Shown: positions 3,425 through 13,931 of the stretch, piece after piece | How the letters are laid out: each line of letters starts with the position of its first letter | Numbering within the stretch: the first letter of the stretch is position 1 | Assembly: GCA_023250585.1 (NCBI GenBank) | Contig: JAHFAK010000008.1 | Location: 12,006-36,234, forward strand | Direction of reading: 5' to 3' | DNA length: 24,229 nt | Origin: Deltaproteobacteria bacterium | GTDB lineage: Bacteria > Bdellovibrionota_F > JAHFAK01 | The notes under the pieces: generated by a model | What the model was told of the DNA's origin: nothing | The model's database searches: none | Seen by the model: the letters and a program-made list of their open reading frames with translations, nothing else | Position numbers and translations under genes: made by a program

Positions 3425-3988
3425 TCATTGAATAGATTCTGAGGTCAAGTTACTTGGAATGCGAGGTTCATCTTTTGGTGTATAATCTTCTTTATTTACT
3501 TTTATCCACGCTGTTCGTGAAAAACCTATGATGTCACCGTCGGATACGGGAGCTTCTGCAACCGATGCTAATTCGTTTTCTGTTTTTTTCGGTAAAATCC
3601 ATTTTGACGTTGAATGCTCTAAAGTGAAAAAGGTCCATGTTCGGGTCCCATCTGTAGTTGAGTCTGCAGTGATTCCCATGAGAGAAAGTATCAAAACCTT
3701 TGGAGGATTATTAAATTTAGGATGCTTTACCAGCGTAATTCCAGATTTTAATAAGGCCTTATACGCCGTATAATCACTCCCTTCTGGGAGGGTAATAATT
3801 TTAGCATATATTTCATTTACTGAGTCTGGTTTATGAGGATCAATGATTATACCTACCTGAATTCCGTCTTGTGTTGAAGCAGATTTTAATGTATTTATAA
3901 ATAACTGCGTTGGCGTTAAAGACGATTCTCCATGAGCACTAATAAAACAAGATAGTGAAATAAAACATATGACACTTCTTCTTAACAT
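3425..3988 (-). CDS. Exported protein with DUF4430-like (transcobalamin C-domain-like) domain
   Basis: The 187-residue product starts with a signal peptide (basic MLRRS, hydrophobic core, then Ala-His-Gly). The rest resembles DUF4430: LPEGSDYTAYKALLKSGI (strand-helix), VLILSLMGITAD, RTWTFFTLEHS, and a late SDGDIIGFSRTAW corresponding to the 'GD.I.W' end strand. DUF4430 is related to the C-terminal cobalamin-binding domain of transcobalamin. The assignment is from pattern only. Its context supports a B12 link: it is the second gene after a cobalamin riboswitch. The ATG lies two bases after the stop of the preceding gene, with its AAAGGAG inside that gene's end, so translation is coupled. A role in capturing or presenting corrinoids outside the inner membrane is an inference. 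Confidence 0.6.
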   Translation of the reverse strand: MLRRSVICFISLSCFISAHGESSLTPTQLFINTLKSASTQDGIQVGIIIDPHKPDSVNEIYAKIITLPEGSDYTAYKALLKSGITLVKHPKFNNPPKVLILSLMGITADSTTDGTRTWTFFTLEHSTSKWILPKKTENELASVAEAPVSDGDIIGFSRTAWIKVNKEDYTPKDEPRIPSNLTSESIQ

Positions 3989-3990
3989 AA

Positions 3991-5169
3991 TTACATCTCC
4001 TTTTTCTTTTGATTGTATTTAATCGTATGGGCTAATTCTATACTATCGATATAGAAACCTGAAAAAAACTCGTTGACGGGTGTAAGAGCTGCTTTTTCTT
4101 CTTCTGTCAGTGGATAAACATCTTGAATGACTATCATTTGAGTATGAGATATTCCTGCAACTGCCAAATCAATAGGAGCGTTTCCCATAATTCCAGAAAC
4201 TGCCCTTCCTAGAGGAACTTTATCTCCATTCTCAGTAACGGCATACACATCGGCCTCATTTGCGAAGCTTTCTGCCAAGACAGGCAAATGGAGATAAAAA
4301 TCAGGCCCTTCTCCATTAATAATAAAGCCATTTTCTGCAGCAATAGCTAATTCGCCGTTATATCCTAAAGTTTGAATTTTAAGTTTGAGTTTTTCTAAAT
4401 CAGAAGCATCTGTATTAGTAACATCAGGTGGGCAAGCAATACGTTCTAGAATTTTTGATTTGTCTGATTCTGCATATCTTCCCAACGCATCCCCCGGTTT
4501 AAAAGAATAAATCGAATATTCAAATGGTCCTAATTGTTCTTCTTTCGCTACTTCAGGGAAAGTAATTTTTTCTTTGGTTTTTTCGTCTTCAAATATATCA
4601 GGAAACAGCTGCCCCAAATTTTTTGCTTTGATTAAGTTTCGATTTTTCTCATAATTTTTTTTACTATCGTTTGAGTATGAGCTATTCTGCCATGATACTG
4701 GTTGATCTTGAGTATTCGTATAAGATTTTTTTTCATTAGTATTACCCGATGAATAATTTGCTGCTCGTCTTTGTGAAACTCCTTGAGAGTTTTTTTCTGA
4801 TCTTCCCCCATCAATATACTTTGGAGTATAATTCGTATATTGCTGACTTTCGCTATTCGTGAGATCTTTATTCTTTCTTTGAAAAATACTCTCTGATTGA
4901 TTCCCCGACGCATGTGTCTTACTAAAAAGTTCCCTCAAAAATTTCTGTTTGCTTTGAGATTGTTGTGTGCCTAAATCAGAAATCGGTTGAGATTTCATCA
5001 TTTCGCTTGAATAAGCATTATGACTATCAGATGCATTGGATATGCCTACATCAATGAAGAGAATGCGCATAATCTGGATTGTAAGAAAAGCAATACCGAA
5101 TAAAGAAAAAGCACAAAAAACAATAAATGATAATTTTCCTAAAGATTTTTTTGAACGTTTAATTAACAT
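3991..5169 (-). CDS. Membrane-anchored surface-type protein with C-terminal 'GPGPDF' domain, under a cobalamin riboswitch
   Basis: The 392-residue product has one N-terminal membrane anchor (about 13-37) after a basic start. A low-complexity Ser/Asn/Gln/Lys-rich linker follows (about 45-185), then a folded C-terminal domain (about 215-382). That domain contains YNGELAIAAENGFIINGEGPDFYLH (split here as YNGELAIAAENGF, then IINGEGPDFYLH), IDLAVAGI and a final SGFYIDSIELAH. These match, from memory, proteins labelled 'cell surface protein' with '...V.GPG.DF.VFEN...' and a terminal 'GFDLDAV...'. The ligand of that family is not known to me. The start is well supported by GGAGG five bases before the ATG, which lies right after a cobalamin aptamer. 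The protein is therefore expected to be repressed when corrinoid is plentiful. Candidate B12 scavenging component; function unproven. Confidence 0.7.
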   Translation of the reverse strand: MLIKRSKKSLGKLSFIVFCAFSLFGIAFLTIQIMRILFIDVGISNASDSHNAYSSEMMKSQPISDLGTQQSQSKQKFLRELFSKTHASGNQSESIFQRKNKDLTNSESQQYTNYTPKYIDGGRSEKNSQGVSQRRAANYSSGNTNEKKSYTNTQDQPVSWQNSSYSNDSKKNYEKNRNLIKAKNLGQLFPDIFEDEKTKEKITFPEVAKEEQLGPFEYSIYSFKPGDALGRYAESDKSKILERIACPPDVTNTDASDLEKLKLKIQTLGYNGELAIAAENGFIINGEGPDFYLHLPVLAESFANEADVYAVTENGDKVPLGRAVSGIMGNAPIDLAVAGISHTQMIVIQDVYPLTEEEKAALTPVNEFFSGFYIDSIELAHTIKYNQKKKEM

Positions 5170-5188
5170 ATGTACCTCCGCGGGATTA

Positions 5189-5279
5189 TAGGCATGGAGA
5201 GCTATCGGGCTTATAGAGTTATTCTACTTACCGTTGCGGGACAGCACCGGATTCTCACCGGACTTTCCTCTTTCCATCC
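5189..5279 (-). promoter_or_regulatory. Cobalamin riboswitch, compact (class II-like)
   Basis: Read on the minus strand, the region contains GAGGAAAGTCCGG, the hairpin CCGGTGAGAATCCGG (5247-5261) and CCCGCAACGGTAA (5229-5240). It then has a B12-box-like AAGCCCGATAGC followed by CTCTCCATGCC (5191-5213). GGATGGA (5273-5279) can pair with TCCATGCC with one bulged base to form P2. Only about 16 bases separate GGTAAG from the B12 box, so the peripheral P8-P12 arms of AdoCbl-selective class I aptamers are missing, as in class II. The GGAGG of the next gene lies 11-15 bases beyond the box (5175-5179), so control by ribosome-site sequestration is the simplest model. Confidence 0.9.
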
Positions 5280-5421
5280 TTGATCGTTATATACAACATC
5301 ACAACTTCGCATACCTTCGTTACTCCTCATCTCGTCACTGCGGCGTAGCTAAAAGTACGCCTCATTCCTCGATTTTGTCGTGCCTTGGTCTGCTCGTTCT
5401 GTCGTTGTATATAACGATCAA
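5280..5421. repeat. Foldback element B: 18-bp perfect arms at the 5' end of the riboswitch leader
   Basis: TTGATCGTTATATACAAC (5280-5297) is exactly complementary to 5404-5421. Inside, the stem continues imperfectly (CACAACTTCGCATACC against CAGAACGAGCAGACC on the opposite strand). The middle holds a small hairpin GGCGTA-gctaaaag-TACGCC (5342-5361). The element is 142 bp, lies between the nifS stop and the aptamer, and would be the first thing transcribed in the riboswitch mRNA. Its centre is unlike that of elements A1/A2. The ORF spanning it on the plus strand looks spurious. Confidence 0.85.
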
Positions 5422-5426
5422 AAGCT

Positions 5427-5456
5427 ATATGTGGGGAAATCTCTTTTTAAAGTCAA
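5427..5456 (-). promoter_or_regulatory. Probable promoter of the riboswitch operon
   Basis: On the minus strand TTGACT (5456-5451) starts seven bases after the nifS stop codon. AT-rich candidates for a -10 (ACATAT or CATATA, about 5432-5427) follow at 18-19 bases. Transcription would begin just before foldback element B. The -35 is good and the -10 is weak. Confidence 0.45.
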
Positions 5457-5462
5457 GGTTTT

Positions 5463-6626
5463 TCAATAAACATCCTTCAATCGAGTAATAATAGTTGGCA
5501 AGGCTTCTAACACAAAATCAATTTCCTCTTCCGTATTAAATCGACCAAGGCTCATTCGAATTGCTGATTTTGCTTCCTGTTGTGATAGACCTAAAGCAAG
5601 AAGAACAGGAGAGGGATCAAGTGAGCCTGATGAACATGCTGATCCTGATGAAACGGCAATCTGAGCTAAATCGAGATTCAGTAAAAGAGCCTCGCCTTCG
5701 ATATGAGTAAATCCAACATTGAGAGTCCCGGGAATTCGATGATCTAATTCTCCATAAATATGTGCATCAGGAATTTTTTCCAAAATGCCTCTTTCTAATT
5801 TCTTTCTCATATTAAATATGCGCTCCATTTCTTGAGATAGATGCGCACGAATTAATTCTGCGGCTTTTCCAAAGCCAGTAATTGCGGCAGTATTTTCTGT
5901 TCCGGGACGTATGGCACGTTCTTGCCCTCCACCGTGCATAATCGGTTCGATAGATAGTCCCTGCTTTATATAAAGGGCTCCAATGCCTTTAGGTCCGTAG
6001 AATTTGTGTGCCGAAAGACTTAAAACATCGACTCCTATATTCGGAATATTTACGGGAATTTTTCCAACTGCTTGAACTGCATCAGTATGGACAAGAATAT
6101 TTTTTGCATGCGCGATTTGAGAGATTTTTTTTAAGGGATAAATGTTCCCAATTTCATTATTGGCAAGCATAACCGATATTAGGATTGTTTTATCTGTTAT
6201 TGCTTCTTGTAATTCATGAATAGTAATTCTGCCTGCATTGTCGACTGGAAGATAGGTAACAAGCGCGCCTTCTTTTTCTAAATATTTCATTGTCGCTAAA
6301 ATAGAAGGATGTTCTACTCTCGTTGTAATTATATGATTCCCGCGATTCTTTTCTTTGAGATAGATTCCTTGAATAGCTAAATTATTAGCTTCTGTGCCAC
6401 CGCTTGTGAAATACATTTCATGGCTAAGAGCTCCAAGGAGCGATGCTATTTCTTCGCGAGCATTTTCAATTGCTACACGCGCGCGGCGGCCGTAGGCATG
6501 AATAGAACTCGCATTACCATGAATATTTCGTAAACATTCTTCAATAACTTCTCGCACGAGCGGGTCGAGAGGCGTTGTTGCATTGTTATCGAGATAAATT
6601 GGGGGCATATTTTTATGGTAATTCAT
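5463..6626 (-). CDS. Cysteine desulfurase, NifS/IscS type
   Basis: This is a PLP enzyme removing sulfur from cysteine for Fe-S clusters or thio-modifications. Numbering from MNYHKN, it has YLDNNATTPLDP (11-22), SGGTEANN (75-82), the PLP-stacking His in VEHPS (about 106), HTDAVQ (180-185), the PLP lysine in SLSAHKFYGPKG (K208), and the catalytic cysteine in SSGSACSSGSLDPS (C331). Length (about 387) is normal. The frame is open upstream to 6752, but that extra part runs through foldback element A2. Other possible starts are ATG 6608 (MPPIYLDNN) and ATG 6650 inside the repeat arm. None has a clear Shine-Dalgarno sequence, which is odd for this window. No iscU or iscR is nearby. The gene follows the M16 peptidase. 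Confidence 0.9.
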   Translation of the reverse strand: MNYHKNMPPIYLDNNATTPLDPLVREVIEECLRNIHGNASSIHAYGRRARVAIENAREEIASLLGALSHEMYFTSGGTEANNLAIQGIYLKEKNRGNHIITTRVEHPSILATMKYLEKEGALVTYLPVDNAGRITIHELQEAITDKTILISVMLANNEIGNIYPLKKISQIAHAKNILVHTDAVQAVGKIPVNIPNIGVDVLSLSAHKFYGPKGIGALYIKQGLSIEPIMHGGGQERAIRPGTENTAAITGFGKAAELIRAHLSQEMERIFNMRKKLERGILEKIPDAHIYGELDHRIPGTLNVGFTHIEGEALLLNLDLAQIAVSSGSACSSGSLDPSPVLLALGLSQQEAKSAIRMSLGRFNTEEEIDFVLEALPTIITRLKDVY

Positions 6627-13385: not shown

Positions 13386-13931
13386 ATGAAAATTTATACA
13401 AAAACAGGCGATACGGGGGAAACGTCTCTCATTGGTGGGCGGCGTATTTCTAAATCTAATGTACGAATAGATGCGTATGGAACCGTTGATGAATTGAATT
13501 CGTGTATTGGATTAGTTCGAGATCATGTAGGACAAGCGCATGAGAAAGAAATATTAAAAAAAATTCAAAATACGCTTTTTGTGATGGGTGCATTACTTGC
13601 CGAAGATCCTCTAAAATCTTTTGAGAAATTACCAAAATTAAATCAAACAGATATTGTTTTTTTGGAAAAAGAGATTGATAAAATGGATGAAATTCTTCCC
13701 GCCTTAAAAGAATTTATCCTACCTGGCGGACATCCTCTTGTTTCATATTGCCATGTTGCTCGCAGTGTGTGTCGACGGGCTGAACGACGATGTGTTGATT
13801 TGGCATCTTCTGAACCAGTGGATAAAATTATCATTATCTATTTGAATCGTTTATCTGATTATCTATTTACGCTTGCGCGAAAGTTTGGGCATGACTTAGG
13901 AATCAAAGAAACAGGGTGGACAAAATTATGA
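13386..13931 (+). CDS. pduO: Cob(I)alamin adenosyltransferase, PduO/MMAB type
   Basis: The 181-residue product transfers adenosyl from ATP to cob(I)alamin, making coenzyme B12. It shows the N-terminal ATP-binding signature YTKTGDTGETSLIGGRR (residues 4-20), RIDAYGTVDELNS (about 27-39), FILPGGHPL, ARSVCRRAERR and LNRLSDYLFTLAR, in the family order and normal length. It is the first gene of an operon: its TTATGA end contains the ATG of the next gene (4-base overlap). There is no Shine-Dalgarno sequence, but TATAAA is seven bases before the ATG. The organism must therefore use adenosylcobalamin. No corrin-ring biosynthesis genes lie in this window, in keeping with salvage. Confidence 0.95.
   Translation: MKIYTKTGDTGETSLIGGRRISKSNVRIDAYGTVDELNSCIGLVRDHVGQAHEKEILKKIQNTLFVMGALLAEDPLKSFEKLPKLNQTDIVFLEKEIDKMDEILPALKEFILPGGHPLVSYCHVARSVCRRAERRCVDLASSEPVDKIIIIYLNRLSDYLFTLARKFGHDLGIKETGWTKL

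Follow-up and report, generated by a model that had tools for sequence, protein, structure and literature searches.

A two-gene unit behind a cobalamin riboswitch

The window, by which the whole analysed stretch of 24,229 nucleotides is meant, carries on its minus strand two adjacent genes, the first for a membrane-tethered protein and the second for a small exported protein, behind a 5' leader that contains a cobalamin riboswitch aptamer. In the order in which they would be transcribed, the features of this unit are the following.

5280–5421, no strand assigned: palindromic element of 142 nt in the leader, adjoining the aptamer on its 5' side
5161–5292, minus strand: diverged AdoCbl riboswitch aptamer in the 5' leader (RF01482, RF00174, RNA fold)
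5175–5181, minus strand: Shine–Dalgarno GCGGAGG of the tethered-protein gene, 5 nt before the ATG, read from the sequence
3991–5169, minus strand: gene (open reading frame) for the membrane-tethered protein, 392 aa, with N-terminal anchor, long disordered linker and C-terminal domain
5056–5133, minus strand: hydrophobic N-terminal anchor, residues ~13–38, read from the sequence
4531–5052, minus strand: Q/N/S/K-rich linker, residues ~40–213, about 175 residues, read from the sequence
3994–4530, minus strand: C-terminal domain of a riboswitch-associated family (GEGPDF ... IDLAVAGI ... GFYIDSIEL)
3425–3988, minus strand: gene (open reading frame) for the small exported DUF4430-like protein, 187 aa, whose relatives match PF14478
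3494–3775, minus strand: DUF4430-like (transcobalamin C-domain-like) region, residues ~72–165, from alignment to paralogs matching PF14478 positions 2–71 of 72

Both open reading frames are real and are those given in a preliminary description of this DNA, which had also taken the first protein to be tethered through a long disordered linker; this layout can indeed be read, since the anchor is followed by some 175 Q/N/S-rich residues, and the same succession of anchor, long linker and C-terminal domain recurs in L008, L009, L015, L016 and L023. The anchor could equally keep the protein on the periplasmic side of the inner membrane as display it on the outer surface. The ATG of the small gene starts 2 nt past the stop of the tethered-protein gene and its Shine–Dalgarno, AAGGAG, sits within the 3' end of that preceding gene, so that the coupled translation proposed earlier for the two genes is plausible. 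Elsewhere in the window, at 1436–2057, an open reading frame of 62 aa overlaps the gene of a small nucleotidyltransferase (DUF6036/DUF2204, with a weak AbiEii match), and the two may form a pair of the toxin–antitoxin type.

The C-terminal domain (C-domain) of the window protein is recovered by a profile built without it at an E-value of 2.9e-13, and still at 1e-10 when L008 is left out too (both against the window's open reading frames); with L008 it shares 29% identity (E 1e-12). Homologues of the tethered protein were found in G034 (two), G059, G060 and G062. The window C-domain represents a shortened subtype, common to the G034:C5 protein (L008), that does not have the FENPF...CAGV middle segment, and binding residues may therefore be missing from it. 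A single-sequence AF2 model of the domain was too poor to use (pLDDT 34).

The riboswitch aptamer and its leader

The aptamer matches RF01482 over the full model (1–149) with 43.7 bits against a gathering score of 50 (E 6.3e-7, in a search limited to 5100–5500), and RF00174 with 30.1 bits against a cut-off of 31.5 (E 7.2e-6, in a search of the 2.24-Mb host genome, of which it is the sole RF00174 match). Its scores lie under the curated cut-offs of both families, so it has to be regarded as diverged, and Rfam at the gathering threshold gives no match anywhere in the window. The aptamer is real, but not clear-cut, as the preliminary description had called it. It has the aptamer core (GGAAAGUCCGGUGAGAAUCCGGUGCUGUCCCGCAACGGUAAG), a closing stem (GGAUGGA/UCCAUGCC) that is present in the RNA fold, and a place directly before probably B12-related genes, homologous pairs of which lie under strong riboswitches. 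The GCGG of the Shine–Dalgarno could pair with the CCGC of the aptamer (5236–5239), a possible kissing contact that would block translation.

Aptamer and closing stem end at about 5279, and the stem does not overlap the neighbouring palindrome (5280–5421). This element, absent from the preliminary description, has 26-nt terminal inverted repeats that are 88% complementary and a predicted hairpin of -54 kcal/mol, and resembles a small mobile palindrome; no second copy was found in the ~60 kb of its own genome examined.

The low scores and the abutting palindrome are what one would expect if the aptamer were a decaying relic, the insert marking a disrupted leader, and the two proteins had been co-opted for another function, such as adhesion, and LIC_13355, the protein after which the nearest library family of the C-domain is named, binds host matrix proteins (PMC11891782). 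Such a history is nevertheless quite improbable, as the aptamer core, closing stem and Shine–Dalgarno are intact, neither reading frame is interrupted, the two genes are coupled, and pairs of this kind accompany strong riboswitches in distant genomes.

A borderline likeness of the small protein to the transcobalamin C-domain

A signal peptide is visible in the sequence of the small protein. Searched directly, the protein has no match in Pfam, PF14478 (DUF4430) included, and neither window protein gave anything useful against Pfam, NCBIfam or PDB. It is, however, recovered by a profile of six relatives built without it (E 1.4e-20, against the window's open reading frames), and for its relatives DUF4430 is the best or only family, with most of the model covered. 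Individual relatives reach 21.3 and 15.3 bits, below the PF14478 cut-off of 23.8 bits, and window-free consensus sequences reach 20.8 and 21.8 bits over positions 2–71 of 72. The DUF4430-like, and hence transcobalamin C-domain-like, character claimed for the protein can thus be upheld at a borderline level, through paralogs scoring 15–22 bits. Its AF2 model from a single sequence was likewise too poor to use (pLDDT 38).

Bacterial transcobalamin-like proteins of the SLBB type were predicted by Burroughs et al. (2007; PMC1796856) to scavenge B12; the members of that clade are secreted, often occur as pairs of paralogs and share their operons with genes resembling CbiO and CbiQ, and their hosts are usually without B12 synthesis.

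A C-domain family tied to cobalamin riboswitches and B12 uptake genes

A profile of six C-domains, searched against 384 genomes, found the family in 39, about a tenth of them. With Rfam at its gathering thresholds, a cobalamin riboswitch lies within ~6 kb of the domain gene at 24 of 36 loci, in all 24 cases encoded on the strand of that gene, either upstream of it or overlapping its start. From the 46 RF00174 matches in 133.8 Mb, the 35 genomes of the scanned loci, only ~0.15 loci would be expected by chance, a figure to be read with the loci not being fully independent, since some genomes are close kin, and with several riboswitch-free loci matching the profile weakly. At two further loci (G041 and G132), the riboswitch lies just beyond the stretch scanned.

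The neighbours of the domain genes point in the same direction: 10 of 60 neighbouring proteins have a TonB plug domain, and YncE/DUF5074 propellers are also among them. L059 presents a complete B12 uptake operon in the order riboswitch, btuB, domain protein, propeller, btuF, btuC and btuD. In L064–L066, the domain can be read C-terminal to a propeller-like part within one protein, and the L066 propeller matches YncE-family PDB chains, including 8blw_B, so that here the domain is fused to a YncE/BtuG-type propeller. At L068, L073 and L074, the domain gene is the first behind the riboswitch, no btuB standing in between. Homologues not linked to B12 genes or riboswitches had been named beforehand as what would speak against a role in B12 capture; the opposite was found, several of the 24 linked loci being btuB/btuFCD operons. 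At L023 (7192–10170), an 83-bit cobalamin riboswitch is followed by a domain-family protein and an exported protein of 434 aa, which matches no Pfam family and reads like a beta-propeller.

LIC_13355 (NF033170) is the only library family near the domain family, being matched by all 19 members tested (best E 4.3e-20), with 13–28 bits for the listed relatives against a criterion of 120 bits and with partial coverage of the model; the window tethered protein itself does not match it. Searches with the window tethered protein and profile A1 against genome contigs, and with profiles A6 and A7 against viral contigs, returned no relatives, and in plasmids a fusion-protein query gave propeller relatives only and the other queries nothing.

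At most loci of the domain family, a propeller or TonB receptor takes the place of the DUF4430 partner, so that the domain might serve B12 uptake complexes in general as a docking part. This raises a division of labour, in which one partner alone would bind the corrinoid, either the DUF4430-like protein, with the tethered one as a docking or scaffold part for this binder or for a transporter, or the reverse. The shortening of the C-domain in the window and in L008 would fit, as would BtuL, a lipoprotein of a B. theta B12 operon that does not bind cobalamin (PMC12751083). Such an arrangement is nonetheless rather unlikely, given that in Bacteroides B12 operons most of the accessory surface lipoproteins are B12 binders (PMC12751083, PMC13398666) and that at L068, L073 and L074 the domain gene stands directly behind the riboswitch.

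The pair in other genomes

Pairs of a C-domain protein and a DUF4430-like protein occur in five genomes, namely the window's own, G034 (at two loci), G059, G060 and G061. Among 59 genomes searched, a single distant one, G034, had the two genes adjacent, and a profile of the small proteins added two, G059 and G060. In G034, one locus (C14) combines a small protein and a tethered-type protein with a cobalamin riboswitch of 90 bits, and the other (C5) comprises a DUF6580 membrane protein, one tethered-type protein and two small proteins; scanning of the latter (L008) showed no riboswitch before the DUF6580 gene. In G059, a riboswitch precedes the small and the tethered-type protein, after which DUF6580 lies on the facing strand. 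G061 has no riboswitch, and its tethered-type protein is accompanied by a small protein that matches weakly.

The arrangement in G060, which comprises a small protein, a tethered-type protein, a second small protein, a likely EcfT and a tandem ABC ATPase, fits the gene neighbourhood given in PMC1796856. The likely EcfT is recognised by its motif only, finding no support in any family library, and the tandem ATPase is similar to EcfA/CbiO as well as to other ABC ATPases. Transporter genes adjoin the pair in G060 only. PF02361 (CbiQ) gave no matches in six genomes and misses even the likely EcfT of G060, so that its absence cannot count against ECF transport.

A separate observation in G034 is a weak cobalamin riboswitch match just upstream, on the same strand, of class I nrdA and nrdB (L024 3807–7191, G034:C2). 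A riboswitch before nrdAB is the typical control of a B12-independent isozyme, and cobalamin riboswitches also govern cobalt transport.

These other uses of the riboswitch, the weak match near nrdAB included, allow one to suppose that the pair handles another ligand, such as cobalt or the B12 precursor cobinamide, or modifies cobamides outside the cell, and is switched on at B12 shortage; cobalt ECF ATPases are, moreover, among those that the CbiO-like ATPase next to the pair in G060 resembles. We regard this as improbable, because the full btuB/btuFCD operons and the BtuG-type fusions among the family loci point to the corrinoid itself, and the likeness to DUF4430 points to transcobalamin.

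B12 use of the host and the apparently missing classical importer

The window's own genome (G000) is 96.7% complete and belongs to a user of B12, as it encodes a fused acyl-CoA mutase and the methionine synthase MetH, which depends on B12, both recognised by reading of the sequence and by matches to B12-binding domains. A gene that bears on this lies in the window, outside the operon.

13386–13931, plus strand: PduO-type cob(I)alamin adenosyltransferase (PF01923, E 1.2e-60)

Its presence shows that adenosylcobalamin is a cofactor which the host produces and employs. Upstream of the window, a protein that reads like a secretin points to an outer membrane. As for the receptor and permease of the classical BtuB–BtuFCD system, the TonB plug (PF07715) has no match in G000, and the sole match to PF01032 (FecCD) was rejected as BtuC, since it is a permease that resembles ZnuB and lies in a Znu operon. 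BtuB and BtuCD are thus likely, but, with a genome of this completeness, not certainly, absent from the host. The classical system, seemingly lacking in the window's genome, is found elsewhere in the class: in G001, the one class-mate examined, a 74-bit riboswitch precedes btuF/btuD/btuC-type genes (L022 8570–11487).

A candidate for the receiving carrier is the DUF6580 membrane protein, which was found in G000, G034 and G059 and adjoins the capture pair in G034 and G059; in G000 it lies alone, on another contig than the window. The copies, each with the invariant cysteine of the motif GLMxCY, are located as follows.

L097 10889–11416 (G000:C137), strand not given: DUF6580 membrane protein
L008 7800–8321, strand not given: DUF6580 membrane protein
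L015 9904–10443, strand not given: DUF6580 membrane protein

DUF6580 might be a cobalamin carrier, possibly BtuM-like in its action; identity with BtuM was rejected, there being no sequence match.

A probable corrinoid-capture module

Organisms compete for B12, and many of the bacteria that depend on it lack a recognised importer. Against this background, the pair is probably a riboswitch-controlled corrinoid-capture module, by which scarce cobalamin would be bound outside the cytoplasm and passed to an inner-membrane carrier. Corrinoid capture is by far the best reading of the contextual evidence, from which we infer the binding, the site in the envelope and the receiving carrier, and the candidate B12 capture system of the preliminary description gains support from the linkage of the homologues to riboswitches and B12 uptake and from the DUF4430 lead. 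Several points count against it: the sub-cut-off scores of the aptamer and of DUF4430, the shortened C-domain, the position of DUF6580 on a separate contig, and the naming of LIC_13355 as a matrix binder.

When AdoCbl is scarce, the leader riboswitch would permit synthesis of the exported pair. The tethered protein would hold its C-domain on a long flexible tether from the N-terminal membrane anchor, its small partner would be a secreted transcobalamin-like (SLBB/DUF4430-like) protein, and both together would bind and hold the scarce cobalamin outside the cytoplasm, before handing it over to an inner-membrane carrier, for which DUF6580 is the candidate in the host and an ECF-type transporter the presumed counterpart in G060. 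Once AdoCbl is plentiful, the aptamer would close and the genes would be shut, probably through a hidden Shine–Dalgarno. A bolder version can be offered only tentatively, namely that a tethered LIC_13355-like domain, a transcobalamin-like protein and DUF6580 make up a complete route by which bacteria with two membranes acquire B12 independently of BtuB and BtuCD, and that the C-domain founds an unrecognised, widespread family of corrinoid binders.

Surface B12 binders under riboswitch control are known, such as BtuG, BtuH and BtuJ. What is new is that the domain family is linked to riboswitches and that it is paired with a DUF4430-like protein in a genome where BtuB and BtuCD cannot be recognised; no prior report of either was found in the open-access literature searched. 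An unnamed exported domain that is tied to cobalamin riboswitches, with few exceptions among its best matches, offers a ready list of candidate B12-binding proteins, and the survey links it with bacterial proteins related to transcobalamin, the carrier of B12 in animals.

Comparison with known systems

Among the known systems, the LIC_13355 family lipoprotein (NF033170) is matched partly and below the cut-off by members of the domain family, and not by the window protein; it is described as a laminin and plasminogen binder, no link to B12 being reported there (PMC11891782). The BtuJ/DUF4465 binders (PMC12751083, PMC13398666), which scavenge B12, resemble the family described here in being exported, linked to riboswitches and encoded beside TonB receptors and propellers; Pfam DUF4465 gave no match up to E 10 with the window C-domain or the A4 and A7 members (0 of 19 family members tested).

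A closer parallel in architecture is BtuH/BtuG1-H of Bacteroides, an accessory domain of riboswitch-controlled btuB loci that is found behind Ig-like domains or fused to the BtuG propeller (PMC8941943, PMC10404256), BtuG1 carrying its BtuH domain behind the propeller (PMC10404256). The domain family shows both architectures, in L059/L072 and in L064–L066, respectively. It differs in comprising ~180 residues instead of ~250, and the window form is anchored N-terminally, without propeller or BtuB; searches of PDB with profiles A4, A6 and A7 gave no match to BtuH (BtuH2) or BtuG1 up to E 10, and transcobalamin in PDB has no sequence match either. As for the candidate carrier, BtuM is a solitary cobalamin S-component, a small membrane protein with a conserved cysteine (PMC6072759), and DUF6580 likewise has an invariant cysteine; it has no sequence match to PDB chains, BtuM among them.

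Finally, the SLBB/DUF4430 proteins (PMC1796856) have a small beta-grasp-like domain, secreted or anchored, of a kind that the small window protein probably shares, and their operons may hold a second paralog and CbiQ/CbiO-like genes, as in G060. The window member differs in scoring below the cut-off, so that it is recognised through its relatives only, in its host, which has no BtuB/BtuCD family matches, and in being paired with an unrelated tethered domain under the control of a cobalamin riboswitch.
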